From Lysobacterales bacterium (GTDB taxonomy: Bacteria > Pseudomonadota > Gammaproteobacteria > Xanthomonadales > SZUA-38): 64,000 nucleotides of DNA. Below, in pieces: positions 6,354 to 62,920 of the stretch (the stretch's first letter is position 1; the number at the start of each line of letters is the position of its first letter). Under the pieces are notes generated by a model, which saw only the letters and a program-made list of their open reading frames with translations, did no database searches and had not been told where the DNA came from. A program made the position numbers and the translations under genes. The DNA lies in contig JANQOZ010000109.1 of NCBI GenBank assembly GCA_028285525.1, positions 62,001 through 126,000 on the forward strand. Reading direction: 5' to 3'.

Positions 6354-9300
6354 TTAGAAGGTCACTCGCAGACCCAGCTGCACCTGCCAGCGAGACTGGC
6401 CGATGCCATCCTGGCGGCGGTTGAAGTCAGTCCTCGTGAGGTCGTATCTGTAGCGACCGTCTGCCGTCAGACCTTCAAAGTTAACGGCCTCTGCTACGTA
6501 TTCAAACGGCACCTGATCAATGCGGCCCCACTCGTCGTTGATGAGGTTGCCGAAGTTCAGGATGTTGACATAGATCTCGCTGCCACCCCAGTCGAAGAAC
6601 GGCAGTTCCTGACGGATGCTGATGTCCAGAGAGCCGACCGACTCACTGCGGCAGTGGTTACGCGTAACCACCGTGCCGCGGAAGCGGTTCAGGCAGGGCG
6701 TGGCGTCAACCAGCGCGAAGAACTCAGCCTCTTCCGCTGCGTCGGTGAATTCCACGTCGCCCGGGCCAGCCGGCACAAACAGCAGGTCGTTGTCGCGGAT
6801 GAAGTCGCCGTTGGCGTCGTTGTCGAACGTGAAGCTGAACGGACGACCACTGCGGCGCTCGTAGAACGCGGTGATAGAGGTCTCCAGATCACCAAACAGG
6901 TTGTCGCGAAACTCGATGCTGGCCACGGTGCGGCTCTGAATCTCGTAGTTGGCGGTGGTTTCCTGCTCTTCGTTCGGGTTGAACGTGGCGCGGTTGTTCC
7001 AGTTGGAAATCGCGCGGCTGGAGGTGCCCGGGTTCACCGCGTCAGCGCGGCTCCAGGTTTTGCCCAGACGTACGGTCCAGTTGTCGTTGAACCGCTTGGT
7101 GAAGTCGAGCGTGAAGTTGGTGGCCGAACCTTCGCTGGTGTTTTCCAGCAGCAGCACGTCGTTGAAAGCCGCGTCGCGGTTGCATCGACCGCCACTGGCA
7201 CTGGCCGCATCACACCAGTAGTTGTTGCGACCGTCGGGCAGCAGACCATTCGGTGTACCCAGGTTCAGGTGGCGATACTGGATGGCGTTCTCCACTTCCG
7301 TGTGCACCAGCTCAGCGGTGGCGTTGATGCCCCAGGGCAGCTCACGGTCGTAGGCCAGATTGGCGCGCCAGATGGTGGGCTGCTCGAGGTTCGGGTCAAC
7401 CACGTCCACGTCCTGACGGGCAGCGCGAGGGCCACCGGCCGGCAATGGCTGGTTGTCCGGATCAGCGGTGTAGCGAATCGTGTCGTCGATCTGGAACACG
7501 TTCAGGTTGCCGCCCGGGTTGGTGAACGGGTTGGACAGCCACACACCTGCGCTGGAGCCGGCGAAGAGGCCAACACCACCACGCAGCTGGGAGGCGTACT
7601 CACCCTGGCTGATGTCCCAGTTGAAACCCACGCGCGGCTGAATGATTTCGTTGCCGTCGATGGTGGCGTCGTTCGGGAAGCCGAAGGTCTCAAGAAACAG
7701 CGGGTTGAAGAGCGGGCTGTCGTCCACGCTGGGCACGTCGATCCGCAGACCGTAAGTCAGCGAAAAGTTGTAGGCAACGTCCCAGGTGTCCTGGATGAAG
7801 AAGCCGGTGTTTTCCAGCGCCCAATCGGCGGCCGGGAACGGATCCGACGGGTCGCTGCCGATGCGGTACTGGTAGAAACTCGGGATGCCGGCTTCGAAAG
7901 CTTCGATGCTCTCGAATTCATAAGTTCCGAGGCTGCCGAAGACAAACACGTTGTTGATGTCGGTTTCTTTGTAGTCGAAGCCGAACTTAATGTTGTGGTC
8001 GCCCCAGATGTATTCGCCTGCGGCATAGAACGTGGTCACGTCGGTGCTCAGCATGTTGGCGTGACGGAACTGTTCGGTGCCGAAAATCACGTCGCCACCG
8101 TCGGTCTCGATCAGGGTCTGGGGTGCGCGAGACCGGGTGATCGGCATGCTGTCGTAGCCGCTCACCGAGAAGTTCACCTCGGTGGACAGGTTCGGGGTCC
8201 AGTCGCTGTACCAGATGACGTTGGCGGAGTCGCGCTCGATGTCGCTGGTGTACCAGTAGCTGCCCAGAGAGAACTCGCCGACGTTGCGGTCGGGAATGAT
8301 CACTTCCTGGCCGTTGTTTTCGGTGTAGGTGAACTGCACCCGGTTGCTGTCGTTCACGTTCCAGTCGAACTTGACGATGATGTTTTCGTCTTCGTCCGAC
8401 AGGTTGGTCGGCGCATCGATGGTGCCGACGTCCAGGCCGTACTGCGTCTGGGCGATGCTTGCGATACGCTCGATCTCTGACCGGTCTAGGTTGAAGATCG
8501 TGGAGGCGCCGCTACCTGGCAGGCCCACACCCGGGCCCGGCTCGGTGCGATCGAAGCCTTCGTAGCCGACGAAGAAGAACAGCTTGTCCTTGATGATCGG
8601 GCCGCCGACAGTGAAGCCATAGACGTCTTCCTCAAAGGTCGGAAAGTCCTGGCCGTTTTCGTTCTCGCCGATCAGGCCGTCGTCACGGAACAGGTAGTAG
8701 ACGCTGCCGTTGAATTCGTTGGTGCCGCTCTTGGTCACGGCGTTGATGCTCGCGCCGTTGAAGTTTGACTGTGCCACGTCATACGGCGAGATGTTGATCT
8801 GGAACTCTTCGATGGTCTCGATAGAGATCACCTGGTTCCGAGCCGGCAGGCCTGATGCATTGAGGCCAAATTCGTCGTTGGCCGGCACGTTGTCGATGGT
8901 CAGGTTGTTGTATCGGTTGTTCTGGCCCGCAACCGACAGCTCCTGGCGGCCCTTGTCGATGACCACAACGCGCGGGTCGAGGCGGGCGAAGTCGTTCAGC
9001 GAGCGTGAGATCGTCGGATAGTTCTCGATCTGGTCACGCGTGATGGTCGTCATCGTGCCCTTCATGTCGGGTCCGAACTGACCAGCGGTGGCGATATCAC
9101 CAACCACTTCCAGCGTACCGAGCTGGGCAGAGCCGCTCTGCAGCTGGGCGTTGAGGGCGTACTCATCGGACAGGTTGATGAACACCTCGCCGAACTGGTC
9201 GCCCTGGAAGCCTTCTTTGGTCACGGTGATGGTGTAAGGGCCGCCGACGCGCAGGCCTTTGGCGCGATAGCGCCCGCTTGCCTGGGTGACTACGGTTTTG

Positions 9301-12279: not shown

Positions 12280-12363
12280 CCCCAACCAGTATAACGTCGC
12301 CCCGGCGCAGGCTCCTCAGCCCCTCCAGTGCGGGCCGGGTGGGACTGCCTTGATCGGCCCTGG

Positions 12364-17572: not shown

Positions 17573-18379
17573 CTAAATCATCCCGCTGAGCTTGAGACCC
17601 AGCACGGCGGCGGCGATCACCAGCACCATGATGATTGCCCAGCGAGCTGAGGACGACTTGGCCGGCTCCTCGGGAACGGCCGTGCGTTCGGCGGTGCTCT
17701 TCGGTTTGGCGGCGTCCACGCCCGGCATCTGAACGAGCAGCCGGACCATGTCCAGCTTCAGCTCGTCGCCCGCCTTGAGCTCCGCTTTGGTAACGCGCTC
17801 GCCGTTGACGAACGTGCCGTTCGACGAGTCGAGATCTTCGACAAACAGCCCGGTGGGCGTCACCAGAATCTTGGCGTGCCGACGCGAGACCTCGTCGTTC
17901 GGCAAACAGATATCGCAGTCGGAATGGCGCCCGATCACCTGGTCGGTGTGCAGCGGATAGTTCTTGCCGAAGGTTGAGCCCGACACGCCGCGCAGCAGGT
18001 ACTTGGGGATCGCTGCCCGCATCACCGTCTGGCTGGCTTCGTTTTTCGGCTTGCGCACCGGCTCGGGCTCCGGCGGTGGGGGCGCGGCCTGCTGGCCTTC
18101 AGCCCCGACCACCTGGCACTGAATACTGGCAAACAGCAGCGCGTCCCCGGCCTTGATCGGGGTCCGCGCGGCAACCAGCGTGCCGTTGACGCGTGTGATG
18201 TTGGTGGCGTCACGCACCCCGATCATCGCGGAACCGTTGTCCATCGTGATCTGTGCGTGGTGCGCGGCAATCCCCTCCTGCTTCAACACCACCTGGCAGT
18301 CGTCGTCTGAACCCACCACGTTTTCGCCGGGCTTAAGCTCGACCTGCTCACTCTCACCGTTGGGAAAAACCAGCTTCAT
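17573..18379 (-). CDS. Double FHA-domain membrane protein
   Basis: A 268-residue protein with two FHA domains. The first (about residues 22-92) is weaker; the second (about 145-215) has the full phosphothreonine-binding signature: VIGRHSDCDICLP, SRRHAKI and DSSNGTFVNG. A Lys/Ser-rich linker leads to one C-terminal membrane segment (about 248-265), so the FHA domains should face the cytosol. It lies 122 bases downstream of the Ser/Thr kinase gene on the same strand, which makes it a likely phospho-reader or substrate of that kinase. Its 3' end nearly meets the lectin-like gene. Confidence 0.88.
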   Translation of the reverse strand: MKLVFPNGESEQVELKPGENVVGSDDDCQVVLKQEGIAAHHAQITMDNGSAMIGVRDATNITRVNGTLVAARTPIKAGDALLFASIQCQVVGAEGQQAAPPPPEPEPVRKPKNEASQTVMRAAIPKYLLRGVSGSTFGKNYPLHTDQVIGRHSDCDICLPNDEVSRRHAKILVTPTGLFVEDLDSSNGTFVNGERVTKAELKAGDELKLDMVRLLVQMPGVDAAKPKSTAERTAVPEEPAKSSSARWAIIMVLVIAAAVLGLKLSGMI

Positions 18380-18501
18380 TCAGGTCCCCATTCTCGTTTT
18401 CGGGCGTTATTGCCGGCCGATTCTAGCGGATTTGGGCGCGCTGCGCAGATCGGGTGGCGAGGTGCCGGGAGGGCTCTGCAGGAGGGCGGAAGCGCGCCGC
18501 G

Positions 18502-21027
18502 TCAGGGCGTGTCCGCGGGGTCTTCCAGGCGGACAACCCGGAAGCCGATCGAGTTGTAGCGCTGGTCCGGGTCGTAGCCTTTGGGCGCGACCAGAAACTT
18601 GGACCGCTCTCCGTCGAGCCAGGAAGTGCCGAGTACCCCGTACTGACGGCAGGAGCCGCCGCGTTCGCGCAAGCAGTCCGCGGTCCATTCCCGCACGTTG
18701 CCGTGCAGGTCGTGCACGCCGCCGGCAATCGCCGGAAAGCTTCCCCCGGGAGCGGTGAAGGGATAGCCGTCGTCGCAGTCCAGCACCTTGCGGCGGCGAA
18801 GCTGCGCGACCAGCGTCTGATCACCCCAGTTGGCGCTGCAGTCCTCCGGAGCATCACCGGCAGTCTCAAGCCACTGTTCCACGCTCGGCAGCGCGTAAGA
18901 CCTGCCGGTCTGATCGCTGAGCCACCGCGCGTAGGCGCTGGCGTCGTTCCAGTTCACGCAGACTACCGGGTGGTCACCGTCCTGCTCAAAACCCGGCTCA
19001 CGCCAGTTGCGCTTGCGGCTGGCCCGCATCCACGACTCCAGGTTGCGGCACGAAGACTCGGCGAGGTCGTAGCCGGTGGCGGCAACAAACTGCTCAAACT
19101 CGTCGACGCTCGTTTCCCGGACCGCCATGGTCACCCCGTCAGCCACGAGCATCTCGGGGCCCTCGCCGCCGTCCATCAGCTCGTCGCGCTCTACGTACGG
19201 TCCTTCCGGCTCCGGCGGCAGCGCGAGGCGCGCCAGCGCCTCAGCAATGGTCGCGTCTTCCGGCTTGAACAGCGCGGCCGCGCGATACTGGCTGCCGGCG
19301 CGGGCCCGATCGCCGACCCGTTCGGCCTCCACGGCACGCGCGATGGTCTGCTCGTAGCCGTACTCCTCTACGCTGTCCAGCGCCTCGGCTACGCTGTCGC
19401 TGAGCGTGATCTGGCGCGCGACCTGGCGCGCCCGGTTGCCCAGCGTCAGCGCGCTTTGATAGCGCCCCCGGTCGACGGCACGCTGCGCCAGACGCACGTA
19501 CCGACGAATGATCTGCTCCATACCGGCCTGCGCCACCTCGTTGTCCGGATCCAGAGACAGCGCCGACTGAAACAGGTCAAACGCATTATCGTCCGCCGGC
19601 GTGGTCAGCCGGTTGGCCGCCAGCGCGGCGCTTGCATCGTCCAGCAGCGACTGCAGCCGGGCGCGGCCCTGCGGTGTGTTGAGCAGGCTTTCGACGAGCA
19701 GCGCCTCGTCCGATTCGTCGAGATCCACCAGCACCGGCTCATCGGGCTGCGTGGAATCCACCGTCGGCAGCACGGGCAGGGGCTCCTCTTCCTCGGGCTC
19801 GACTGTGCCGTTCGCCAGCCCGGACAGGTCTTCGCTGCCCTCTACCTGCCCGGTTCCGCCGCCGGCGTCGAGTGTCGCTGGCGCGTCCTCGGAAGCCTCG
19901 GCTACGGCGAGCGCCGCGTCATCCGGGGTCTCAACATCTGCCTCGTCGGAGCCGCCGGCAAAAAACGCGGCCAGCCCTAGCAGCACTACTCCAGCGACAA
20001 GGCCAGCCAGAGCGGCAGGCGGCAGGCGCTGCAGCTTGCCACGCAGCCACGCGGTGCCCCGGCGGGCCGCCGGACCGAAACCCGACAGCCAGTCGCCCGG
20101 ACCTTTGCCAAGGGCCAGCCCTACCCAGCGCAGCCTTCCCGATTTGCTTGGCGACATCTCCGGGATGGGCAGCGGTGTTGTGACGGCCAGGTCCGGCTTT
20201 TGCTGCTCGCGACGGCGCCCGTCGCCGGTGGTCTTCTTGAGGAACCCCTCAAGCACCGCGGAGACCTCTTTCATGCTGCCGTAGCGATCGTCAGATGACT
20301 TGGCCATGCAGCGCTGAATGAGCTCCTGCCAGCGCAGAAAGCGCGGCGGCAGTTTGGGTACCGGCTCGTACACGTGGGCGTACGCCACGGCAAAGCTGTC
20401 GTCGCCTTCGTAGGGCGGTTTGCCGGACAGCGCCTCGTAGATCACGGCGCCGAGGCTGTAGATGTCGGAACGGGCGTCCACCTGCCGACCCCGGGCCTGC
20501 TCCGGGCTCATGTAGTAGCTGGTGCCCATGCTTAAGCCCGTTGCAGTCATCCTCGACGCCTCGCTGACCACCGTGGCGATGCCAAAATCAGTCAGGACGG
20601 GCTGGTCAGCGACGTCGAACATCACGTTGCCCGGCGTCACGTCACGATGAACAAAGCCGCGCTCGTGGGCGTGCTGAAGCGCGCTGCAGATCGGCAGCAG
20701 GATGCGCAGCAGCTCGCGCTCCGGCATGCCGTCGGGAATGCGCTGCTCCAGGTCACCCCCGGGCAGCAGCTGCATAGAGAAGTAGTGCAGCCGGTCTGGC
20801 GTTACGCCGACGTCGTGGATCGAGACGATATTGGGATGGTTGAGCTCAGCGATGGTGCGCGCCTCGCCGACAAAGCGGTCGGCGAACGTCCGGTCGGCCG
20901 CCAGGGCCGGCGACATCACCTTGAGCGCCACTTCGCGCTGAAGCGAGTCCTGCACGGCCAGAAAGACCGTAGCCATGCCGCCCGTTCCCAGCGTTTTTTT
21001 CAGCGTATATCCGGGGATTTGCACCAT
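18502..21027 (-). CDS. Membrane Ser/Thr protein kinase with C-terminal SUMF/FGE-like domain
   Basis: An 841-residue PknB-type kinase. The N-terminal kinase domain (about 8-265) has the glycine loop GTGGMATVF, VALKVM lysine, HRDVTPGNVMF catalytic loop, TDFGIA and SPEQARG, so it should be active. A membrane segment lies near residue 338-358; beyond it are an acidic linker, TPR-like helices (about 455-610) and a formylglycine-generating-enzyme-like fold (about 625-835: PVVCVNWNDASAYARWLS, GNVREWT, IGFRVV). The region that holds the paired active-site cysteines in true FGE reads GVLGTSWLDGE here and lacks them, so the domain is probably a binding module in the periplasm. Confidence 0.9.
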   Translation of the reverse strand: MVQIPGYTLKKTLGTGGMATVFLAVQDSLQREVALKVMSPALAADRTFADRFVGEARTIAELNHPNIVSIHDVGVTPDRLHYFSMQLLPGGDLEQRIPDGMPERELLRILLPICSALQHAHERGFVHRDVTPGNVMFDVADQPVLTDFGIATVVSEASRMTATGLSMGTSYYMSPEQARGRQVDARSDIYSLGAVIYEALSGKPPYEGDDSFAVAYAHVYEPVPKLPPRFLRWQELIQRCMAKSSDDRYGSMKEVSAVLEGFLKKTTGDGRRREQQKPDLAVTTPLPIPEMSPSKSGRLRWVGLALGKGPGDWLSGFGPAARRGTAWLRGKLQRLPPAALAGLVAGVVLLGLAAFFAGGSDEADVETPDDAALAVAEASEDAPATLDAGGGTGQVEGSEDLSGLANGTVEPEEEEPLPVLPTVDSTQPDEPVLVDLDESDEALLVESLLNTPQGRARLQSLLDDASAALAANRLTTPADDNAFDLFQSALSLDPDNEVAQAGMEQIIRRYVRLAQRAVDRGRYQSALTLGNRARQVARQITLSDSVAEALDSVEEYGYEQTIARAVEAERVGDRARAGSQYRAAALFKPEDATIAEALARLALPPEPEGPYVERDELMDGGEGPEMLVADGVTMAVRETSVDEFEQFVAATGYDLAESSCRNLESWMRASRKRNWREPGFEQDGDHPVVCVNWNDASAYARWLSDQTGRSYALPSVEQWLETAGDAPEDCSANWGDQTLVAQLRRRKVLDCDDGYPFTAPGGSFPAIAGGVHDLHGNVREWTADCLRERGGSCRQYGVLGTSWLDGERSKFLVAPKGYDPDQRYNSIGFRVVRLEDPADTP

Positions 21028-21148
21028 GACGCCCGCAAAAAGTAATCGTAGATGGCGCCTTTTGCTTCCGTGGATGGGCGCTCTAGTCTGGTATCGTCAC
21101 CAGCAACACCTTGAATTCTAGCGCATCCACGACAAGGATTTTACGCAC

Positions 21149-21490
21149 TTGGACACACTGACACCGGCACTGTTGCTTTTGCTCGGCGCCCTCGGCTACC
21201 TGTGGTTTAACGGGGTGCGGGCGCGCGAAGCGGCCGTTGCGGCGTGCCGGCACGCCTGCAGTCAGGTTCAGGTGCAGTTTCTCGATCAGACGGTCCGCCT
21301 GAGCGGGCTCGGGCTCGCCCGGGCGCCGTCGGGCAGCCTCAGTCTCCGGCGCCACTTTCGTTTCGAGTTCAGCGAGCAGGGATCGGACCGGCAGCCCGGG
21401 ATGGTGGTCCTGCTGGCCGGTCAGCCTACGCAAGTGATTTTGGACGGGGCCGCCAGCGGCCGGCTCGTCATTCCGATGGGGTCTACTTAA
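21149..21490 (+). CDS. DUF3301 family small membrane protein
   Basis: A 113-residue protein with one N-terminal membrane segment (about 5-21) and a conserved soluble tail (LSLRRHFRFEFSEQG, GQPTQVILDG) that fits DUF3301, a family found in gammaproteobacteria and of unknown function. The only credible start is the TTG at 21149, supported by AAGGA about 11 bases upstream. Its last 8 bases overlap the end of the convergent sspB gene. Confidence 0.78.
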   Translation: MDTLTPALLLLLGALGYLWFNGVRAREAAVAACRHACSQVQVQFLDQTVRLSGLGLARAPSGSLSLRRHFRFEFSEQGSDRQPGMVVLLAGQPTQVILDGAASGRLVIPMGST

Positions 21491-21881
21491 TCACCTTGAG
21501 GTGACTCTTCCCGCCATTCGGATCGTCGGTCTTGTCGTTGCTGTCCGCATCATCAGTCAGCGAGCTGTCTGCCTCGTCAGCGGCAAACATCATGCCGTGG
21601 CCGTTTTCTTTCGCGTAGACGGCCAGGACCGCCGAGACCGGCAGATAGACGTTGCGAGCGGCGCCGGAAAAGCGCGCGGAGAACGTCACGGCATCGTTGC
21701 CGAGCACCATGTCCTGCACGGCGTGTGGCGCCATGTTGAGCACAATCCGGCCGTCCTTGATGCCCTGAGGGGGCACGTCGACGCCGTCGATGGTCACGTC
21801 AGCCAGCAGATAGGGCGTCAGATCGCAGTCGACGATCCAGTCGTACAGGGCTCGGATCAGGTACGGGCGGGATGAGATCAT
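21483..21881 (-). CDS. sspB: ClpXP adaptor SspB
   Basis: A 132-residue stringent-starvation protein B, the adaptor that brings ssrA-tagged proteins to ClpXP. The substrate-binding core (about 5-105; RPYLIRALYDWIVD, ARFSGAARNVYLPVSAVLAVYAKENG split between strands) is followed by an acidic disordered linker and a C-terminal HLKVIK, which fits the short ClpX-docking tail. It overlaps sspA by 4 bases (ATGA), so translation is probably coupled. Confidence 0.95.
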   Translation of the reverse strand: MISSRPYLIRALYDWIVDCDLTPYLLADVTIDGVDVPPQGIKDGRIVLNMAPHAVQDMVLGNDAVTFSARFSGAARNVYLPVSAVLAVYAKENGHGMMFAADEADSSLTDDADSNDKTDDPNGGKSHLKVIK

Positions 21882-52102: not shown

Positions 52103-53812
52103 TTACTCCGACTGGGGCGCAGTGCCGGTCGGCAGCTTTCTTCGCGCCCGCCACGCGGCTAGCTGAGCCTCCACCGCTTTGGCGCGCAGCAGCTGCGGCT
52201 CAGATGGCGTCAGGTCCTGCTCCTCTTCCCACTCAGCGACCTTTTCCCGGGCAAGCTCGAAGGCTTCCACAAGCGACTCACTGTCGCTCAGAGACTCGGC
52301 CAGGAAGGCCCGGCCAAAATCGGTCATCTCGTTTTCGTCGGCGCAGCCGAAAGAATTGCGGTCGGCCCGGGCAGAGGTCATCACGAGGGTCTTGCCGTCA
52401 TCGAGGTGAGGGATAAACCCACCCGAGTAGCAGGCCGCGACAATCACCACTTTGTGCTGGATGTCTGCCGCCCGCAGCATCTCGCCGAGCTCCGCGGCAG
52501 GCAGGTTGGGCAGCCGCATGCCCCGTTGTGCCAGCGACAGCTCGTGATCGCTGCTGCCATGGCTGGTCAGGTACAGCAGCACAATGTCCTGCGCCCGATC
52601 CATCTTGCCGGCCACCGCCTCCAGCGTCCGCCTGAGGCTGGACCGTGTCGCCATCGGCAGCCGCTCGACCGAGGTGCGGCTGTTCGCGAGCGTGACCAGC
52701 CGATCCGCCGCCTGCCACTCGCTGCCGTAGATTTCGCCTGCGAACTCGACCTCTCGTCGGAACACCTCCTGCCGGCCGTCGCCCGCCACCTGCACGATAA
52801 ACAAATCGATTTCGTCGGGCCTCTCTGCTGGAACGGCGCTGAGCGCCTGCTCAAGCAGCGCTTCCTGCAGGTAGAGGCTTTTTTCCGCCAGCAGCTCGGC
52901 GGGATCGGGGCCCGCCATGCTGTGACCGGGCGTCAGGTCATCGACCAGCGCAACCGCCGTTTCGGCGAGCGAGTCCAGCCAGCTCGGGGCGGGCCCGACG
53001 TATTCGCCGTAGGAAAACTGTCCTTCGCTGACGGTACCGTCCGCAGCCGTCAGGCGACCGACGCCGTGATAGTCGTAGTAGCCGTCGAACGCCCCCTGAT
53101 AGGTGCCGCCGTCACTTCTTTGGTGCGTCCCGTACATGAGGTAGCCGTCCTCAAAGTTGCCACTGTAGGTGCCGGCTTCCGAGACAAACTTCCCCTGACC
53201 CGTGATGACCCAGTTCGAGTAAGTACCCTCGTAGTAGTCCCCGTTCGGCAGCGTCCAGCGGCCCGCCACAAACTTTCGATTCTCAAACGTCCCGCTGTAG
53301 ACCGTACCCCCGGGCATGCGCATTTCACCCTGCCCGGTCTCCGCGCCGTGACGGAACTCCCCTTCATATTCGCTTTCGTCTCCATACCGGAGCAGTCCAC
53401 GCCCCGAAAAGCGGCCAAAGGCAAACGAACCTTCGTACGTCTCACCCGAGACGACAGTGAGCGACCCCTGACCGCTTGGGTAACCCTCGGCAAACTGGCC
53501 CTGGTACCGCGAGCCGTCCGCGAAATCCATCACGCCCTCGCCGCCGAACATGCCGTTACGCATTTCGCCGACAAACCGATCGCCGTTCGCGAAAGAGAAG
53601 TCTCCGTCACCGTGCATCAGACCATCCCGGAACTCGCCCTCGTAGCGGTCGCCGTTGGACCAGACCAGCAAGCCAATGCCGTGCATTCGATCACGCTTGA
53701 GCTCGCCGTCATACCGACTGCCGTCCGGCAGTTCCAGGGTCGCCGCACCGGCGGCGCCGGCGATTAACGCAACTGCGAGCATCGGGCTTCGCAAGGATTT
53801 CGCAAACAACAT
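52103..53812 (-). CDS. Exported MORN-repeat protein fused to a C13 (legumain/caspase-like) peptidase
   Basis: About 569 residues. After a signal peptide (MLFAKSLRSPMLAVALIAGA) come eleven MORN units in residues about 28-270, each starting [YF]xG[ETQ][FLM]. The C-terminal part (about 330-540) is a clan CD peptidase: catalytic His418 in LYLTSHGSSDHE and Cys461 in IVAACYSGGFI, with the SARADRNSFG phrase of the C13 family (legumain, GPI transamidase). MORN repeats bind lipids or make scaffold sheets, so the peptidase may be held on a membrane. The ATG at 53812 fits the signal peptide; the frame back to 53899 does not. Confidence 0.85.
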   Translation of the reverse strand: MLFAKSLRSPMLAVALIAGAAGAATLELPDGSRYDGELKRDRMHGIGLLVWSNGDRYEGEFRDGLMHGDGDFSFANGDRFVGEMRNGMFGGEGVMDFADGSRYQGQFAEGYPSGQGSLTVVSGETYEGSFAFGRFSGRGLLRYGDESEYEGEFRHGAETGQGEMRMPGGTVYSGTFENRKFVAGRWTLPNGDYYEGTYSNWVITGQGKFVSEAGTYSGNFEDGYLMYGTHQRSDGGTYQGAFDGYYDYHGVGRLTAADGTVSEGQFSYGEYVGPAPSWLDSLAETAVALVDDLTPGHSMAGPDPAELLAEKSLYLQEALLEQALSAVPAERPDEIDLFIVQVAGDGRQEVFRREVEFAGEIYGSEWQAADRLVTLANSRTSVERLPMATRSSLRRTLEAVAGKMDRAQDIVLLYLTSHGSSDHELSLAQRGMRLPNLPAAELGEMLRAADIQHKVVIVAACYSGGFIPHLDDGKTLVMTSARADRNSFGCADENEMTDFGRAFLAESLSDSESLVEAFELAREKVAEWEEEQDLTPSEPQLLRAKAVEAQLAAWRARRKLPTGTAPQSE

Positions 53813-53966
53813 CAGGACTTCTCGTCTTCGATCGATGAATCTGAGACTACCGCCTATCCATCGGCAGGAAAACCCGATTTTGGTACCGCTGTGGACCACG
53901 TCACGAAGTCGGGACAGCGCACGAGGCTCTGGTAGACTTCAGTGATGGGAAAGAGGAGGGATCGGA

Positions 53967-55310
53967 TTGGCTGCGCCGGCTGACGTAGCGTCTGCTGCGC
54001 GCTCGGGTGAGCCTGGCGTTTCTCACAGCGCAATGTCCGGCCAGGAGCCCCCGCTGATCGCCTGCCACGAGTGTGACGCGATCTACCGCCGCGAGCCGAT
54101 CGCCCGCGGGGCCAAAGCCACCTGCAAGCGTTGCGGTGCGCTGCTCTACCGTGGCCTGCCCGACTCGCTCGATCGTTCCCTCGCCCTTTACCTCGCTTCA
54201 CTGGTGCTGCTGATCATCGCCAATACGTTTCCCTTCCTGGCGCTGAAGGTCGGCGGGATAGTTGAGCAGGACCACGTCATCGGCGGCGGCCTGGCGCTGG
54301 TGGACTTCGGCATGGCGGAGCTCGGGCTGGTGGTGTTCCTCACCAGCATCGCTTTTCCGTTCATCACGATTGCCGGCACGCTCTACCTGCTGATCGCCAG
54401 TCGGCTGGACGTGGTTGCCCCCGGCATGCGGCTCACTTATCGCGTCGTGAACGCGCTCGGCTCCTGGAGCCTCATCGGGGTTTTTCTGCTGGGAACGCTG
54501 ATTGCCATCGTCAAGCTCAAAGATCTGGCGACCGTGGTTCCCGGGCCTGGCCTGTTCGCGCTCTTTGCGCTGGTGGTGGTTTACGCCGCGGCGCGGACGG
54601 GGTTCGACCCGGAAGTGGTCTGGCGACCGCTGCGTCTGCGGCGGCTCACCGAAGCCGACCTGCCCTCGGCCGGGCAACTGCTGCATTGCCACAGCTGCGG
54701 CCTGCTGAATCGCGGCACGCAGCACCCGCATCCGCAGTGTGCGCGATGCCACGCGCCCCTGCATCCGCGCCTCGCCAATAGCGTGCAGCGAACCTGGGCG
54801 CTGATGGCTGCCGCGGTAGTGATGCTCATTCCCGCCAACCTGCTGCCGGTGATGACGTTCAAGAAGCTGGGGCAGGGAGAACCGAGCACCATCCTCGGTG
54901 GCGTCGTGCATCTGGTCGAAGACGGCGCCTGGGGGCTGGGGCTCATCGTCTTTTTTGCCAGCGTCGCCGTGCCCGTCGCCAAGCTGATCTCGCTCGGCAT
55001 GCTGCTGCGGTCGTTTCGATCCGGCGCCACCTGGCGACCGAAAGACCGCACCGCGCTCTACCGCGCTACCGAAATGATCGGCGCCTGGTCGATGATCGAC
55101 GTGTTCCTGGTGGCGCTGTTGGCGGGACTGGTCAGTCTGGGGCTGGTTGCCTCAATCGAGCCAGGGCTGGGCGTCACGTTCTTCGGTGCCGCGGTGATCC
55201 TGACCATGTTTGCGGCCCACAGCTTCGATCCGCGCCTGATCTGGGATCACGCTGACCTGGCCGGGCAGTCCGGCGACCCGGTCCCGACTGCGGTAGATCC
55301 ATCACGATGA
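53967..55310 (+). CDS. pqiA: Intermembrane transport protein PqiA
   Basis: A 447-residue, inner-membrane protein with two PqiA units. Each unit begins with a zinc-ribbon-like Cys set (CHECDAIYRRE...CKRCG at about 31-52, CHSCGLL...CARCHAPL at about 245-268) and then about four membrane segments. PqiA works with the PqiB MCE tunnel to move lipids between membranes. The start is a TTG at 53967 with a perfect AGGAGG 8 bases upstream; an ATG at 54033 lacks one. First of five tightly packed genes; overlaps pqiB by 4 bases. Confidence 0.93.
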   Translation: MAAPADVASAARSGEPGVSHSAMSGQEPPLIACHECDAIYRREPIARGAKATCKRCGALLYRGLPDSLDRSLALYLASLVLLIIANTFPFLALKVGGIVEQDHVIGGGLALVDFGMAELGLVVFLTSIAFPFITIAGTLYLLIASRLDVVAPGMRLTYRVVNALGSWSLIGVFLLGTLIAIVKLKDLATVVPGPGLFALFALVVVYAAARTGFDPEVVWRPLRLRRLTEADLPSAGQLLHCHSCGLLNRGTQHPHPQCARCHAPLHPRLANSVQRTWALMAAAVVMLIPANLLPVMTFKKLGQGEPSTILGGVVHLVEDGAWGLGLIVFFASVAVPVAKLISLGMLLRSFRSGATWRPKDRTALYRATEMIGAWSMIDVFLVALLAGLVSLGLVASIEPGLGVTFFGAAVILTMFAAHSFDPRLIWDHADLAGQSGDPVPTAVDPSR

Positions 55311-56971
55311 ACGATCAGCCGCCCGTCGCTTCACCGGACGTGAGCCAGAGCTCCGGCTTCTCCATGGTCTGGCTGATCCCGATCGTCACGCTGGCGGTGG
55401 GCGGCTGGCTGATCGTCAAGACGCTCACCGACCAGGGCCCCACCGCCACGGTCAGTTTCCGCACGGCGGCGGGCATCGAGGTCGGCAAAACCCGGGTGAA
55501 GTACAAGAGCGTCGATATCGGGATGGTCGAGGATGTGCAGTTCGCCGAAGACTTCGGCAGCGTCATCGTCAACCTGCGCCTGAACAAAGGCCTGGACGAC
55601 TTTCTGCGCCGCAACACGCGCTTCTGGGTGGTACGGCCCCAGCTCAGTGTCCGCGGCGCGTCGGGGCTGGAGACGCTGCTGTCCGGGGCCTACATCGAAA
55701 TCGATCCGGGGCCCGGCTCGCGACAGCGACACTTTGTGGGTCTCGAGCGTCAGCCCCTGATCAGCGCTGAGGACGAGGGTTCGCGGATCACGCTGATCTC
55801 CGACGCGCTGGGGTCGGTCGATTCAGGCTCGCCTATCTACTATCAGGGGCTGCTGGCGGGTGAGGTGCTCGGCTACGACCTGGCCAGCGACGCCCAGAGC
55901 GTTTACGTCTATGCGTTTGTGCGCGACCCCTACGACCAGCTCATCCGCGGCAACACCCGCTTCTGGAACGTGAGCGGCCTGGACATTTCGCTCGGGGCCG
56001 ACGGGCTGGAGGTGCGCACCGCGTCGGTCCAGTCGCTGCTGTTCGGCGGCATCGCCTTTGAGACGCCCAACACCACGGAGCCAGTACCCGAAAACATCTC
56101 CGACCTGGTGTTTACGCTGTACCCCGATTTCCAGGCGATTGCGGAAGGCGCCTACGCTCGGCGCCTGCGCTACGTGCTCTATTTCGACAGCTCCGTCCGG
56201 GGCCTCAACGCCGGCGCGCCCGTTGAGCTCAAGGGCATTCGGGTCGGCAGCGTTCACGACGTGCGCCTCGAGTTCAACGCGGACGACACCAGTTTCCTGA
56301 TTCCGGTGATCATCGAGCTCGAGCCCGATCGGATTGTCGGTCAGCAGAACCTCGAGCAGGCGCCGGAGAACATCCTGTCAACGCTGGTCGAACGGGGCCT
56401 TCGAGCGCGCCTCCAGACCGGCAGCCTGCTCACCGGCCAGCTGTTTGTGGAGCTGAACATGTACGACGATGCGCCGCTGGATCTGCGGGGCGACGGCAAG
56501 CAGCCCTACCCGGAGCTCCCGACCATCGCCGGCAGCTTCGAGGCCATTACCGCCACGGTCGATCGCTTCATCGCGCAGCTCGATTCGGTCGACCTCGAGG
56601 CGATGGCGGAAAACCTCAATGGCATCCTGGCCGGCGCCAACAGCCTCATCAACACCGATATCAGCAGCGATGTGGCCACCGATCTGCAGGACTCCATCAG
56701 GTCGCTGCGCAACGTGCTGCGGGACCTCGACGCCGGCAATCTCGACCAGACCCTTGTCGCGGCCAACGCGACGCTGGCGCAGCTCGACGAAGCGCTCAAG
56801 CTGACCAGCGACGTGCTGACCCCATCTTCGCCACTGCAGTACAACCTGACGCAGCTCACCGCGGAGCTTGAGGAGACCGCCCGCTCCATCCGCAACCTGA
56901 TGGATCTGCTCCAGCGCCAGCCCAGCTCGCTGCTGTTCGGCAAGGACAATGATTCGGAGTCCGACCCATGA
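55307..56971 (+). CDS. pqiB: Intermembrane transport protein PqiB (three MCE domains)
   Basis: A 554-residue protein with one N-terminal anchor (about 16-36), three MCE domains (about 45-140, 160-250, 285-390) and a long C-terminal helix region (about 400-535) that in E. coli forms the needle across the periplasm. Length matches E. coli PqiB (546). MCE hexamers form a lipid tunnel. Overlaps of 4 bases on both sides (ATGA) tie it to pqiA and pqiC. Confidence 0.96.
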   Translation: MNDQPPVASPDVSQSSGFSMVWLIPIVTLAVGGWLIVKTLTDQGPTATVSFRTAAGIEVGKTRVKYKSVDIGMVEDVQFAEDFGSVIVNLRLNKGLDDFLRRNTRFWVVRPQLSVRGASGLETLLSGAYIEIDPGPGSRQRHFVGLERQPLISAEDEGSRITLISDALGSVDSGSPIYYQGLLAGEVLGYDLASDAQSVYVYAFVRDPYDQLIRGNTRFWNVSGLDISLGADGLEVRTASVQSLLFGGIAFETPNTTEPVPENISDLVFTLYPDFQAIAEGAYARRLRYVLYFDSSVRGLNAGAPVELKGIRVGSVHDVRLEFNADDTSFLIPVIIELEPDRIVGQQNLEQAPENILSTLVERGLRARLQTGSLLTGQLFVELNMYDDAPLDLRGDGKQPYPELPTIAGSFEAITATVDRFIAQLDSVDLEAMAENLNGILAGANSLINTDISSDVATDLQDSIRSLRNVLRDLDAGNLDQTLVAANATLAQLDEALKLTSDVLTPSSPLQYNLTQLTAELEETARSIRNLMDLLQRQPSSLLFGKDNDSESDP

Positions 56972-57576
56972 CGACCGCCAGCATTCGCCGATTCTCCCTG
57001 CCGTTCCTCGCAGCTTTTCTCCTGGCCGCCTGCGCCGGCGGCGGCGGTGCGCCGACACGCTACTACATCATCGGCCCCACGGACGCAGACGCCCTGAGCT
57101 CGGGCGCCACGCCGCCCGCGGTGCAGATCGTGGGTCTCGATCTGCCACAGTACCTGGAGCGGGTTCAGATCGCGACGCAGGCGGCGCCCAACCGGATGCG
57201 TTTTTCCGAGGGGCACCAGTGGAGCGAGAACCTGCGGAAGAACCTGCTTCGAACCCTGAGCCGGAACCTTTCGCGACTGCTGGGCAGCCCGAGCGTCGGC
57301 GCTCCCGGTGCGCGCAGCGCCACGGCGCCGGACTACCGGGTCAGGGTCACCATCGAGCAGTTTGAGCGCGACGTGGCGGGCACCGTGCGTCTGGACGCCA
57401 GCTGGCAGCTGCTCGACGCGAGCGGCGCTGCGCCGACGCTCAGCTTTCAGTCGCGGCTGAGCTCGGACAATACGGTCAGGGCCGGCGACTACGACGCCAT
57501 CGTCGCGGCCATGCAGGATCTCTTCGGAGAGCTGTCCGTGGCGATTGCGCAGCAGATCGTGGCGGCGGAAGCGTAG
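56968..57576 (+). CDS. pqiC: PqiC-type lipoprotein (ABC-transport auxiliary)
   Basis: A 202-residue lipoprotein with lipobox LLAA-C (near residue 21) and the DUF330/PqiC domain (YYIIGPTDADAL, GLDLPQYLERVQI, DYRVRVTIEQFERD). PqiC sits in the outer membrane and caps the PqiB needle. The start overlaps pqiB by 4 bases; the LolA-like gene follows after 2 bases. Confidence 0.93.
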   Translation: MTTASIRRFSLPFLAAFLLAACAGGGGAPTRYYIIGPTDADALSSGATPPAVQIVGLDLPQYLERVQIATQAAPNRMRFSEGHQWSENLRKNLLRTLSRNLSRLLGSPSVGAPGARSATAPDYRVRVTIEQFERDVAGTVRLDASWQLLDASGAAPTLSFQSRLSSDNTVRAGDYDAIVAAMQDLFGELSVAIAQQIVAAEA

Positions 57577-57578
57577 TC

Positions 57579-58517
57579 GTGAACGCCCGACGCCCAGTCC
57601 GCTGCGTGGCGGCGCTTGCGCTGACCGGCTGGCTTGCGGCCTTTGCACCCGTCGGCGCTCAGCCGAACGGTCCGCCAGTCGAAGCAGAGTCTCCGATGGC
57701 GGAAGCCACGGGCCGCGCGCTGATGAACGCGGTCTACGGCCGCCATCAGCGCTATCCGCACGTCTACGAGGAGCAGTCGATGGTGCTGGTAGACCGGCAT
57801 GGGCGGCGTGAAACCCGGCGGCTGACGCTCTATTCAAAGCTCGAGACAGACGGCAGCACCCGCGTGCTGCTCCGCTTCACCGACCCGAGCGAGCTGCTGG
57901 GCATGGCGCTGCTGGCGACGCTCTACCCCGACGGCACCTCCAAGCGGCAGGTGTTTCTGCCGGCACTCGGGCGCCAGCTGATCAGCAATAGCTCGCTCGA
58001 CGGCGAGGACTTCGCCATCACCGACCAGCATTTTCTCGGCACCGATTTTTCGATCGAGAACCTGGCCGGCGAAAACCTCGACCACTACCGCTACGAGCGG
58101 CGCCGCGACGCGCTGATGGATCAGGCCGAATACTACGTCGTCGACGCGTTCGATCCCGGGGCCGACCCGGCGACGGCGCTGCCGCTGCGGCGCCACTTCA
58201 TCATCAAAGACGGGCTGTTCATCACCCGCACCGACCACTTTGCCGCCAACGGAGCGGTTGAGTCGCGCCAGACGCACCACGACCTGGTGGTGGTGAACGG
58301 TGACACCTGGCGCGCCAACATGACGCTGATGAACAACCTGCGCGAGGTGCACCAGACCATCATCAAGGTCGACCAGCGCGTGTTCTCCCCGGATTACGTA
58401 CCCGACGAGGTGTTTACGGCCGACTGGATCTTCGCCAACGCGCCGGCGTTCGACGAGGAAACCCCTGAGCCGGCGGATGAGACGGATGCAGCCGCCCCGG
58501 CGGAGGCGGACGCATGA
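57579..58517 (+). CDS. LolA-like outer-membrane lipoprotein-sorting family protein
   Basis: A 312-residue exported protein with a GTG start two bases after pqiC. The signal peptide (about 10-29, cut near VGAQ) is followed by a LolA/LolB-like half-barrel domain (about 45-270: QSMVLVDRHGRRETRRLTLY, RFTDPSELLGMALL, DLVVVNGDTWRANMTLMNN). This family often accompanies RND/MMPL transporters and is thought to carry lipids or lipid-linked cargo in the periplasm. Its end overlaps the next gene by 4 bases. Confidence 0.88.
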   Translation: MNARRPVRCVAALALTGWLAAFAPVGAQPNGPPVEAESPMAEATGRALMNAVYGRHQRYPHVYEEQSMVLVDRHGRRETRRLTLYSKLETDGSTRVLLRFTDPSELLGMALLATLYPDGTSKRQVFLPALGRQLISNSSLDGEDFAITDQHFLGTDFSIENLAGENLDHYRYERRRDALMDQAEYYVVDAFDPGADPATALPLRRHFIIKDGLFITRTDHFAANGAVESRQTHHDLVVVNGDTWRANMTLMNNLREVHQTIIKVDQRVFSPDYVPDEVFTADWIFANAPAFDEETPEPADETDAAAPAEADA

Positions 58518-61345
58518 TCCACGCGCTCTTTACGCTGGGCTTTCGCCGTCCGCTCTGGGTGGTGGCGCTGGTGACCGCGGTCACGGTGCTGGCAGCCATG
58601 GGGCTGCCGCGACTCGAGATCGACACCAGCTTCGGCAATCTCATTCCCGAGAACGACCCCGCTCGCGTCGCCTATCAGCAGGTGATGGAGGAGTTCGGGT
58701 CGGACAACATGACCATCGTCTATGCCGCCGACCAAAACCTCTGGACCCCCGAGGGACTGCGGCGCCTGAACGAACTCCAGCTCGCGCTGGAGCGAATCGA
58801 CGGCGTCGAACGGGTGGACAGCGTCTTCAGCCTGCGAGCCATTCGCGGCACCGAGCCCGACGACGCCGACGCGCGGGCCGTGTCCCAGATCGAATCCATG
58901 CCGGTGCTCGCTGATGTTCCCAGCACGCTGGCGGACGCCGAGGCAGCGCGCGACCGGGCGCTGGCGAACCCGCTGTACCTCGGCAACTTCCTCTCCGAGG
59001 ACGGCACGGCAACCGCCCTGCTCGTGTCCGTTAGCGACAGCGACGATCGGCCGGACTTTGATCAGACGCTCAACGACGCGCTGGACGCCGCGCTGGCGCC
59101 GTTTAAGGGGGATTTTGACGGCCTGTTTCAGGTTGGGCCGCCCCGTATCCAGTCGGAGCTCGCCAACAGCCTGAGCGGCGACTTCCGGCTGCTGGCGCCG
59201 CTGTCGGCCGCCGCGCTCGTGCTGGCGATGGTGGTCTTCCTGCGCAGCTCGGTGGCCGCGCTGGTACCGCTGGTCACCTCCGCGCTGTCCATCATCTGGA
59301 CGTTTGGTCTGCTCGGCTGGCTGGGCGTGCCGATGAACATGCTGAGCGCGATGATTCCGTCGCTGATTATCGCGATAGGCTCCACCGAAGACACGCACCT
59401 GATCGCCGCCTATTTCCGCGGACTGGCCGAGCACCGGACGCAGGCGCCAGACCAGGCTCGCCGCACCGCCATCCGCTACCTGGCAAGCCACGCGGGCCTG
59501 GCGCTGATCCTCACGGTGATCACCACCACCCTCGGTTTCGCGGCAAACCTCTTCAGCGACATCGGCCTGATCAAACAGTTTTCTATCGCCGCCACGGTCG
59601 CCATGGTGGCCAACGGTGTTGTCACCGCGCTGGTCGTACCGCCGCTGCTGTCGCAGCTCGGGCCGGAGCGGCTGCCGCGCGCCTTTGTCGCTGAAGCGGA
59701 GGCCAAGGCACAGCACAAGCCTGGAACTCATCTGTCCGGCCGTATCGTCAACCTGTTTCGGCGGTCGCAGCGCCGGTTTCCGATCGGCATTCTGCTGATC
59801 ACCGCGGGGCTTGTGGTGTTTTTCCTCTACGAGGCGTCGAAGCTGTACGTGACCAACGATCCGCTGTCTTACTTCCCCGGCGATCGTCCGCTGGTTCAGG
59901 ACACCCGCCGCATCAGCAGCGAGCTCGCCGGCGTTCGGGTGTTTTTTGTCACGCTGAAGGCGGACGCAGACCGCGCTTTCTTGGAGCCGGATAACGTCAG
60001 AAAGCTTGCTGAGATCCAGGAGTTTGCCCGGGCGCAGGATGCTTACGACCGCAGCCTGTCGCTGGCAGACCATCTGAGCTACGTCAACGAGCAGTTCCGC
60101 GGCCGGTTTGCCAGCAGCGACCTGCCGGAAACCCGTGCCCTGATCGCCCAGTACCTGCTGTTTTTCCACCGCAGCGAGCTGGAGAGCTACGTCAGCCACG
60201 ACTACCGCCGCGCGAACATCATCGTGCGCCACTCCATCAGCGACTCTCACACCCTCAACGAGTACGTTCGGGAGCTGGAGGACGCGCTGGGCACGATCAC
60301 CGGACCGGGTATTCAGGCGGAAATTGTCGGCGAAAACCTGATGGTCAATCAGGCGGCCGAGAGTCTGATGGTGGCGCAGCTCAAAGCGCTCGCGCTGCTC
60401 CTGCTGCTGATCTTCATCCTGATGTCGATCATGTTTACCTCATTCAAAGGCGGCGCCCTGGCGCTGGTGCCGGCGATTATTCCGATTGCGCTGATGTTCG
60501 GCATCATGGGGCTGCTGAATATTCCGCTGAATCCGGGTACGGCCATGGTGGCGGTGATTGCGGTGGGCATTGCGGTGGACGGCACGATCCACCTGCTGGC
60601 GCGCTACAACGAGCGCTGCCGGAAGACCTCTGACTACGTGCAGGCGGTTCACGACTCGATGGACGACGTGGCAACGCCGCTCATCAGCTCCAGCCTCGCG
60701 CTGGCCCTGGGCTTTGGGATGCTGCTGTTTTCCAACTTCACCGTGGTCGCCCAGTTCGGGGCGCTCGCCGCGGCCACCATGCTGATCTCCATCATCGCCA
60801 ACCTGCTGGTCACGCCGATTCTGATGACCCGGATTCGGCTGGTCGGGCTGTACCAGATCCTGTCCATGCGGGTCGACCGCGAGGTGCTCGATCGCAGCAC
60901 CCTGTTCAGCGGCATGTCCGGCTATCAGCGCCGCAAGGCGATATTGATCTCGGAGATGCACGAGGTGGAAGCGGGTGAACTGCTGGTCGAGCAGGGTGTG
61001 GTCGGCCGCAGCATGTACCTGATCCTGGAAGGGGAAGCCGAGGTAGTGCGCCGGGACGACGGCACCAGCCGAACGCTGGCCATGCTGAAGCCCGGCGAGA
61101 TCTTCGGCGAGATCGGCTATATCCGAGCCGTCGAGCGCACCGCGGACGTGCGTGCACGCACCCCGGTGACCGCGCTGCGGTTTCAGTTCGACCGCATGCA
61201 GAAGGACCTCAAGTTCTTCCCGACGATCGTCGCCAACCTCAACTTCAACATCAGCGCGATTCTTGGCGAACGCCTGGCCGATACGCTGGATCACGCCAAG
61301 CCCGGCGCGCAGGGCAGCAGCCCGGCCGGCGGCAGTACTGGCTGA
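58514..61345 (+). CDS. RND/MMPL transporter with C-terminal cyclic-nucleotide-binding domain
   Basis: A 943-residue inner-membrane RND protein: two repeats, each with a first membrane helix, a periplasmic loop and five more helices (first set ends about 385, second set about 620-780), with intracellular motifs SFGNLIPENDP and DVATPLISSSLALALGFGML. The last ~150 residues (about 795-930) form a cNMP-binding domain: VEAGELLVEQG, GEIFGEIGYIRAVERTADVRA-type phosphate cassette split at Gly, with the phosphate-binding Arg near residue 875. The fusion suggests that transport is gated by cAMP or another cyclic nucleotide. Last of the five-gene pqi-lolA-RND unit. Confidence 0.9.
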   Translation: MIHALFTLGFRRPLWVVALVTAVTVLAAMGLPRLEIDTSFGNLIPENDPARVAYQQVMEEFGSDNMTIVYAADQNLWTPEGLRRLNELQLALERIDGVERVDSVFSLRAIRGTEPDDADARAVSQIESMPVLADVPSTLADAEAARDRALANPLYLGNFLSEDGTATALLVSVSDSDDRPDFDQTLNDALDAALAPFKGDFDGLFQVGPPRIQSELANSLSGDFRLLAPLSAAALVLAMVVFLRSSVAALVPLVTSALSIIWTFGLLGWLGVPMNMLSAMIPSLIIAIGSTEDTHLIAAYFRGLAEHRTQAPDQARRTAIRYLASHAGLALILTVITTTLGFAANLFSDIGLIKQFSIAATVAMVANGVVTALVVPPLLSQLGPERLPRAFVAEAEAKAQHKPGTHLSGRIVNLFRRSQRRFPIGILLITAGLVVFFLYEASKLYVTNDPLSYFPGDRPLVQDTRRISSELAGVRVFFVTLKADADRAFLEPDNVRKLAEIQEFARAQDAYDRSLSLADHLSYVNEQFRGRFASSDLPETRALIAQYLLFFHRSELESYVSHDYRRANIIVRHSISDSHTLNEYVRELEDALGTITGPGIQAEIVGENLMVNQAAESLMVAQLKALALLLLLIFILMSIMFTSFKGGALALVPAIIPIALMFGIMGLLNIPLNPGTAMVAVIAVGIAVDGTIHLLARYNERCRKTSDYVQAVHDSMDDVATPLISSSLALALGFGMLLFSNFTVVAQFGALAAATMLISIIANLLVTPILMTRIRLVGLYQILSMRVDREVLDRSTLFSGMSGYQRRKAILISEMHEVEAGELLVEQGVVGRSMYLILEGEAEVVRRDDGTSRTLAMLKPGEIFGEIGYIRAVERTADVRARTPVTALRFQFDRMQKDLKFFPTIVANLNFNISAILGERLADTLDHAKPGAQGSSPAGGSTG

Positions 61346-61393: not shown

Positions 61394-62920
61394 ATGGGTA
61401 AAAAACTGTCCAGGCGAAGCGTGCTTTCGATCCTCGGCTCCACGCCGGGCCTTGCGGCGTTCCCGGCGCATGCTCAGGACAGCGAAACGCCCCTCTGCGA
61501 TTTGCTGGTGGTCGGTGGCGGGAACGCGGGGATGCCGGCCGCCATCTTTGCCGCCGAGCGAGGTGCTCGGGTGCTGATCGTGGATACGGCGACGCAGCTT
61601 GGCGGGACGCTCTGGCTGTCGTCAGGACAGATGAGCGCCGCCGGAACCAAGCTGCAGGCGGCGAATGGCATTGAGGATTCACCCCAGTCCCACTACGACG
61701 ACATCATGCGCATCAGCGAGGGGACCGCTGATCCCGACATCGTGCGCCTCGCCGTGTTCAACGCGGCCGACACGTTCGACTGGCTCATGGATCACGGGCT
61801 GGGTGTGCACGACGAACATCCGGTGACCGGTACCAATCACGAGCCCTACAGCCAGCCGCGCTACGCGTGGGGCAAAGACGACGGGCGCTCGATCATTCGC
61901 ATTCTCAGTGCGCAGCTTCAGCCGCACATCGACGCCGGCCGCGTGTCGGTGAGCCTCCGTACCAAAGTCACCGAATTGATCCAGGCGCCGGACGGCACCG
62001 TGACCGGCGTGGTCACGCACAATGAGGCCGGCGAGGTGATGAGGCATCGTGCACGTCACACGCTGCTGGCCTGCGGTGGCTACACGGCCAACGAAAAAAT
62101 GTTTGCGCAGCTCGAAGGCGCGCGCGACTACGCTGACGTCACCTATCCTTACAGCCAGGGCGCCGGCATTACGCTGGCGCTCGCTGCCGGCGGCTACGTC
62201 CGCGGCGGTGAACATCATCTTCCGCTGTTCGGCGCCGTGCTGGCGAGCGACAGCTACCCGGCTCGCATGATCGGTACGGTGCGTCCGTGGCCGCCAGCGC
62301 GGCCGCCCTGGGAGATCTACGTCAACGCCAACGGCCAGCGCTTTCTGCGGGAGGACATACCCAGCCATCACGCGCATGAAAACGCGCTGCTCGAGCAGCC
62401 GGAGGAGCGCTGCTGGGTCGTCTTCGACGAAGCCATCTTTGCCCGCGCCCCGCAGCTGGTGCGTGGCTCATTTGCGGGGCCGCTGGACCAGGAGGACATC
62501 CGCCTGGCCTTCGAGAGCGGCATGGATATGTTCTACAAGGCTGACTCGATCGAGGCGCTTGCCGAGGCTGCCGGCATCGACGCGTCCGGCCTTGCGGCAA
62601 CCGTCGCCGATTACAACCGCGGGCAGGCGGACGGTCAGGACAGCCTGGGCCGGAAGCACCTCCCGCTGCCAATTGCCGAACCGCCCTTCTATGCCGTTCA
62701 GCTCCAAAGCTGGCTGCTGACGTCCTTCGCCGGCGTGGCCGTCGACGACCGGCTGCGCGTCATCCGGGACGACGGCACGGCGATCCCCGGGCTCTATGCC
62801 GCCGGTGAGCTGCTCGGCTCCGGGCAGTTCAACGGTCGGTCCTACTGCGGGGGCATGCTGGTCACGCCGGCCCTGACCTTCGGCCGACTGCTGGGGCAGA
62901 AGCTGCTGGATTTTGCTTGA
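61394..62920 (+). CDS. Exported FAD-dependent oxidoreductase (fumarate reductase/KstD-like)
   Basis: A 508-residue flavoprotein. A Tat-like leader (SRRSVLSILGSTPG) is followed by the dinucleotide loop LLVVGGGNAGMPAAIFAAERG (read in parts) and, near the C-terminus, GLYAAGELLG and FNGRSYCGGML, which close the FAD site. It belongs to the fumarate reductase/3-ketosteroid dehydrogenase flavoprotein family; the substrate is not known. AAGGA lies 9 bases before the ATG. A lone -10-like TATACT is at 61357-61362. It is convergent with the hydrolase gene. Confidence 0.87.
   Translation: MGKKLSRRSVLSILGSTPGLAAFPAHAQDSETPLCDLLVVGGGNAGMPAAIFAAERGARVLIVDTATQLGGTLWLSSGQMSAAGTKLQAANGIEDSPQSHYDDIMRISEGTADPDIVRLAVFNAADTFDWLMDHGLGVHDEHPVTGTNHEPYSQPRYAWGKDDGRSIIRILSAQLQPHIDAGRVSVSLRTKVTELIQAPDGTVTGVVTHNEAGEVMRHRARHTLLACGGYTANEKMFAQLEGARDYADVTYPYSQGAGITLALAAGGYVRGGEHHLPLFGAVLASDSYPARMIGTVRPWPPARPPWEIYVNANGQRFLREDIPSHHAHENALLEQPEERCWVVFDEAIFARAPQLVRGSFAGPLDQEDIRLAFESGMDMFYKADSIEALAEAAGIDASGLAATVADYNRGQADGQDSLGRKHLPLPIAEPPFYAVQLQSWLLTSFAGVAVDDRLRVIRDDGTAIPGLYAAGELLGSGQFNGRSYCGGMLVTPALTFGRLLGQKLLDFA

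Follow-up and report, generated by a model that had tools for sequence, protein, structure and literature searches.

The five-gene locus

In a stretch of 64,000 nucleotides from a Lysobacterales bacterium (contig JANQOZ010000109.1, hereafter the window), five open reading frames (ORFs) at positions 53967–61345, all on the plus strand, code for PqiA-, PqiB- and PqiC-like proteins, a LolA-like periplasmic carrier and an RND/MMPL transporter with a cyclic nucleotide monophosphate (cNMP)-binding tail. The genes share 4-base ATGA overlaps at three junctions, while pqiC and the lolA-like gene are separated by a 2-base gap. This layout had been read from the DNA in the original prediction, and both the ORF positions and the Pfam matches agree with it. 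As presented below, the five-gene order is conserved well beyond this genome and its proteins co-diverge.

The pqiA-like gene (53967..55310, 447 aa) codes for a two-domain PqiA/LetA-type inner-membrane protein, with PF04403 matching two stretches (E-value 4.2e-91) and a TIGR00155 score of 280.6 bits, above the cut-off of 260.35. Its start is either TTG at 53967, which a probable ribosome-binding site read directly from the DNA (AGGAGG, 53954..53959, plus strand) precedes by 7 nt, or alternatively the in-frame ATG at 54033. The pqiB-like product (55307..56971, 554 aa) has a single N-terminal transmembrane (TM) segment by hydropathy (residues 19–37) and three MlaD/MCE stretches (PF02470, 4e-37), and the pqiC-like product (56968..57576, 202 aa) is an outer-membrane lipoprotein (PF03886, 9.3e-34) with an LAAC lipobox, the cysteine of which (Cys22) is encoded at 57031..57033. 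The Escherichia coli-type NCBIfam cut-offs were missed (NF011683, 251.4 against 562 bits; NF008070, 452.6 against 525; NF033620, 33.4 against 200).

The LolA-like protein (57579..58517, 312 aa, GTG start) carries a signal peptide and scores 60.0 bits with PF17131 (3.1e-16; gathering cut-off 30), which all six tested relatives pass as well. Its profile finds two LolA-like proteins of solved structure, 3bk5 (1.8e-37) and 9tp6 (2.3e-34). As to the LolA lipoprotein chaperone proper, Pfam gives PF17131 only, and NCBIfam returned no match at an E-value of 0.001.

The RND protein (58514..61345, 943 aa) matches the MMPL (1e-31) and cNMP_binding families of Pfam, with PF03176 found twice, corresponding to two MMPL halves, alongside PF12349 and PF00027. 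The HAE3 RND family (TIGR00921) is its best match, yet the score of 215.6 bits lies below the cut-off of 351.9. Membership of the RND superfamily is indicated by the two halves, the RND fold and acidic residues in TM4 and TM10. These are the putative proton-relay residues Asp293 (IGSTEDTH, 59390..59392), an Asp in 81 of 84 homologues, and Asp689 (GIAVDGTIH, 60578..60580), an Asp in 83 of 84, the remaining one having a gap. The nearest solved folds to an AlphaFold2 model of the protein (predicted local distance difference test score, pLDDT, 86.6) according to Foldseek are MmpL4, MmpL5 and MmpL3 and NPC1/NPC1L1, with HpnN further down, so that the modelled fold resembles those of lipid-handling RNDs.

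Conservation of the gene order

The original prediction of a single unit depended on the order being kept in related genomes, which is what a search for it found. When the LolA-like protein was searched against 274 genomes of the same class, four strong homologues were obtained (39–47% identity, the next best having 27%), and all four, from four different families, stand in the identical five-gene order. A scan of genome_contigs with the RND alignment gave 332 relatives, the best 80 of which were kept for locus counts. Among these best 80 loci, 49 have pqiA-pqiB-pqiC-lolA-like-rnd in order and on one strand (two of them, L073 and L095, being identical to two of the four genomes from the class search), and eight more have pqiB-pqiC-lolA-rnd on contigs that start in or near pqiB. 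The genes mostly overlap or touch, and the 4-base lolA/rnd overlap is present in 39 of 75 loci. According to the record titles, five-gene loci occur in Gammaproteobacteria, Zetaproteobacteria (including the isolate Mariprofundus sp. EBB-1), Nitrospinota, Desulfobacterota/Deltaproteobacteria and one Verrucomicrobia metagenome-assembled genome (MAG); the Nitrospinota, Desulfobacterota and Verrucomicrobia assignments are MAG labels, which mis-binning could make wrong.

As this locus scan was keyed on the RND protein, PqiB was searched as an independent direction. It was found at E ≤ 1e-30 in 50 of the 274 class genomes. The window aside, four genomes have a PqiB with 53–55% identity, and all four have the five-gene unit, the other full-length sequences having at most 42%. 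Twenty ordinary pqiABC loci have no adjacent LolA-like or RND-cNMP gene, by which linkage as a general property of pqiABC is ruled out; one of them, L189, has a distant RND (23%) on the opposite strand. In a sample of 398 genomes from the phylum, PqiB relatives with 40–46% identity are common without this RND protein, and the linkage is thus a trait of a sub-clade rather than of PqiB as a whole. The RND protein was found at E ≤ 1e-110 in 20 of these 398 genomes; by a manual count of the listed positions, PqiB lies upstream on the same strand in 11, close by in another orientation in 3 and on another contig in 4, and was not detected in 2. L084, G303, G355 and G430 have the same types of PqiB and RND near each other, but in divergent or convergent arrangement and not as a single operon. 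In four five-gene loci (L061, L066, L070 and L071), a second MCE protein is encoded about 0.7 kb past rnd on the minus strand, convergent to the unit, with a PqiC-like lipoprotein alongside it in three.

Chance adjacency is ruled out by the conserved order. With that order retained across several phyla and other flanking genes varying, it is highly improbable that the five genes are functionally unlinked neighbours that happened to hitch-hike together. No conserved sixth gene was found in the five-gene loci, the commonest flanking cluster being a signalling protein family in 8 loci, on either side, and no biosynthetic gene cluster was found as a conserved neighbour. In the window, an FAD-binding gene (61394–62920) lies 48 bp downstream of rnd and was excluded from the unit because this neighbour is not conserved. 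The divergent neighbour on the other side (52103–53899, minus strand) codes for a protein with MORN repeats at the N-terminus and a peptidase domain of the C13/caspase-like type, and an AsmA/DUF748 protein, a member of a further envelope family with ties to lipid transport, is encoded near the window start (248–3103, minus strand). The five-gene region showed no sigma-70-like promoter site, and its 7 terminator-like matches, all within genes, compare with 4.3 ± 2.2 expected.

Phylogeny and the pqi-less sister lineage

The trees were mostly built with fast methods. The pqi-linked RNDs form a single clade in a FastTree phylogeny of 67 rows (support 100), with which IQ-TREE on 45 rows agrees (Shimodaira–Hasegawa-like approximate likelihood ratio test, 100), and the PqiBs of five-gene loci lie on one side of a branch that separates them from 25 ordinary PqiBs (support 100). 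The pairwise distances co-vary across all five proteins (r 0.79–0.91), with none of 2000 permutations as high. Since the kinship of the organisms adds to such correlations, the informative comparison is with the PqiA-PqiB pair: its value (r = 0.870) is equalled by RND-PqiB (0.870), while RND-LolA gives 0.909. The five proteins of the unit therefore co-diverge, and the idea that they belong together is strengthened by this as well as by the conserved order. The occurrence of the unit outside Gammaproteobacteria, the distinct PqiB clade and the gene content of the sister lineage described next go beyond what had been predicted.

LolA-like/RND pairs had been mentioned in the original prediction as a separate association, and they are indeed found as such, both in the Ape and Ame systems of the literature (PMC8253772, PMC6394551) and in our set, where Alphaproteobacteria, Methylobacter and Vreelandella have the LolA-like/RND-cNMP pair without pqi genes, outside the five-gene clade. 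A gene of about 460 aa lies 3' of rnd in 13 of the 16 pqi-less loci with enough DNA and in none of the five-gene loci; in L132 it is on the opposite strand with one gene intervening. The model of the encoded protein (pLDDT 75.9) is a beta-barrel whose best matches are AlgE and porins. Of the barrel proteins tested against Pfam, only one reached the DUF1302 cut-off. This DUF1302-like barrel gene is at 12790–14205 in L118, with equivalents in L108, L109, L112, L117, L120, L121, L122, L124, L127, L128, L130 and L132. In L108 (Novispirillum itersonii), an ordinary-type pqiABC set (18152–21681), with pqiA apparently as two ORFs, lies about 4 kb past the lolA-rnd-barrel set.

An outer-membrane barrel of the DUF1302 type, as found in the Ame cluster, is thus present in the pqi-less sister loci and missing from the five-gene clade. 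That it is absent exactly where PqiABC is present suggests a replaced function, and it appears that the outer-membrane endpoint of an Ame/Ape-type exporter was replaced by PqiABC, once. The PF17131 scores of the carriers, in a small sample, are 60–108 bits in the five-gene clade (four members) against 136–150 in the pqi-less loci (three), as would be expected if the carrier had adapted to a new partner. Outgroup rooting, with long branches, places the pqi-less state at the base, while the tree alone gives no order of states.

The putative cyclic-nucleotide-binding tail

The domain at the end of the RND protein (residues 817–896, 60962..61201) matches PF00027 with 64.4 bits (9.4e-18; cut-off 27.5), and its phmmer partners are regulatory subunits of protein kinase A, protein kinase G, SthK and CRP. 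It contains the phosphate-binding cassette FGEIGYIRAVERTA (residues 864–877, 61103..61144). Among 80 homologues, G865 and E866 are present in 79, the last one having an undetermined X, R875 and A877 in all 80, and T/S876 in 78. The cassette is kept in every readable RND tail, in several phyla, which upholds the cNMP-binding tail that had been proposed for the pump. On the basis of its sequence, the tail is a cyclic-nucleotide-binding (CNB) domain with a canonical cassette and probably a cyclic-nucleotide receptor. It should be cytoplasmic, because it is placed after the last TM helix in a topology taken from the RND fold. The genome itself has class III cyclase domains in five places and four proteins, one of them inside the window, which makes a ligand for the tail plausible. 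The one in the window is a MASE10-GAF-class III cyclase protein (9739–12285, minus strand), a possible source of the nucleotide.

In many other proteins, domains with the CNB fold bind no cyclic nucleotide, and the tail could accordingly be a structural or oligomerisation domain that binds no signal, which would fit any reading of the transport function. We consider this unlikely, as the G-E ... R-T/S-A residues have been retained in 80 homologues from several phyla and the domain matches receptors of both cyclic AMP and cyclic GMP.

Proposed transport system and alternatives

We propose that the locus encodes an envelope lipid-transport system in which a proton-driven RND pump, probably regulated by a cyclic nucleotide, and a LolA-like shuttle are coupled to a PqiABC conduit, a reading for which we find the balance about even. 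The older module would consist of an HAE3-like RND/MMPL pump, driven by protons and equipped with a cNMP-sensing domain on its cytoplasmic side, and a LolA-like periplasmic carrier; in the sister lineage, the DUF1302-like outer-membrane barrel would complete it. PqiABC would take the place of the barrel in the five-gene clade, with PqiA in the inner membrane, PqiB as a hexameric tube spanning the periplasm and PqiC as a ring at the outer membrane. The pump would most likely take a phospholipid or another amphiphile from the inner membrane and hand it to the LolA-like carrier, and PqiABC could serve as trans-envelope conduit or as docking site at the outer membrane; the pathway would thereby be energised by the proton gradient, with cytoplasmic cyclic AMP or cyclic GMP tuning the pump when bound at the tail. 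The most specific form of this proposal, in which the nucleotide-gated pump and its shuttle physically load the PqiABC tunnel and the system arose by PqiABC replacing the barrel of an older LolA/RND exporter, is put forward tentatively.

Several observations weigh against the proposal as a whole. Two members of the clade, L084 (with divergent pqiA and pqiB) and L097, do not have the linked order, some genomes have adjacent pqi and rnd genes in other orientations, and in L107, a locus of the five-gene type, no pqiC-like gene could be recognised in the stretch from pqiB to lolA (8147–8200). Strict co-assembly of all five parts is therefore not needed everywhere. The pqi-less loci L126, L129 and L133 have no barrel, and the exchange of barrel for PqiABC is essentially one point in the tree, a single historical event however long it has been retained.

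The divergent or separated modules of some clade members would be better tolerated by co-regulation than by co-assembly, and the operon could instead combine two separate lipid routes, one outward through the RND and LolA-like proteins and an independent, possibly inward one through PqiABC, balanced by co-expression without physical hand-over. Each module does occur alone, as in the 20 ordinary pqiABC loci and the pqi-less lolA-rnd loci, and PqiABC is thought to bridge the envelope without a carrier (PMC10897342). Such an arrangement is nevertheless somewhat doubtful in our judgement, as it leaves aside that precisely the clade with PqiABC lacks the barrel of the LolA/RND module and that RND and PqiB co-diverge as closely as PqiA and PqiB. 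The cargo might also be a special hydrophobic product (a hopanoid, an aryl-polyene-like lipid, a terpene or an alkane-like compound) rather than an ordinary phospholipid, with PqiABC as its exit at the outer membrane or in membrane repair. This would be in line with known LolA-like/RND systems, which handle aryl polyene lipids (PMC8253772) and monoterpenes (PMC6394551), and with the HAE3 protein HpnN, a hopanoid exporter (PMC8277102). We regard it as quite unlikely, given that no conserved biosynthetic neighbourhood makes a dedicated unusual product visible.

Comparison with known systems

To our knowledge, the power source of PqiABC-type MCE tunnels and the direction in which they move lipids are open questions. 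A lineage in which such a tunnel is combined with a soluble carrier and with an RND pump that ends in a cyclic-nucleotide sensor provides specific candidates, open to testing, for both the energy source and the regulator, and the sister loci suggest that LolA/RND exporters can have their outer-membrane end exchanged. Our search of the open-access literature turned up no account of this five-gene combination. HpnN, MmpL3–5 and NPC1 include the nearest solved folds to the RND part, and we know of no cyclic-nucleotide tail or such operon partners for them.

PqiC is known to assemble into an octameric ring by which PqiB is held in place at the outer membrane (PMC10897342). The locus shares with PqiABC of E. 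coli the gene order, the Pfam families and a TIGR00155 score above the cut-off. It differs in its separate PqiB clade, in scores below the E. coli-type NCBIfam equivalog and exception cut-offs and in the lolA-like and rnd-cNMP genes downstream. ApeLMN (LolA-like, RND and LolB-like proteins, encoded in aryl polyene clusters; PMC8253772) likewise combines an RND pump and a LolA-like periplasmic carrier, serving a lipid destined for the outer membrane, but has a LolB-like endpoint instead of PqiABC and is part of a biosynthetic gene cluster. AmeABCD of Castellaniella defragrans, made up of a DUF1302 outer-membrane protein, a LolA-superfamily protein, a second periplasmic protein and an HAE3 RND (PMC6394551), is similar in its HAE3-type RND with a LolA-superfamily partner, and its barrel has a counterpart in the pqi-less sister loci. 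Ame, however, lacks PqiABC and has a DUF1329-type LolA partner, and AmeD, with 787 aa (PMC6394551), is too short for the extra tail. Mpc of Brucella abortus, a chimeric Mla-Pqi system (PMC12436622), is like the present unit a naturally occurring hybrid based on an MCE conduit, with Mla-type parts where the five-gene unit has an RND pump and a LolA-like carrier.

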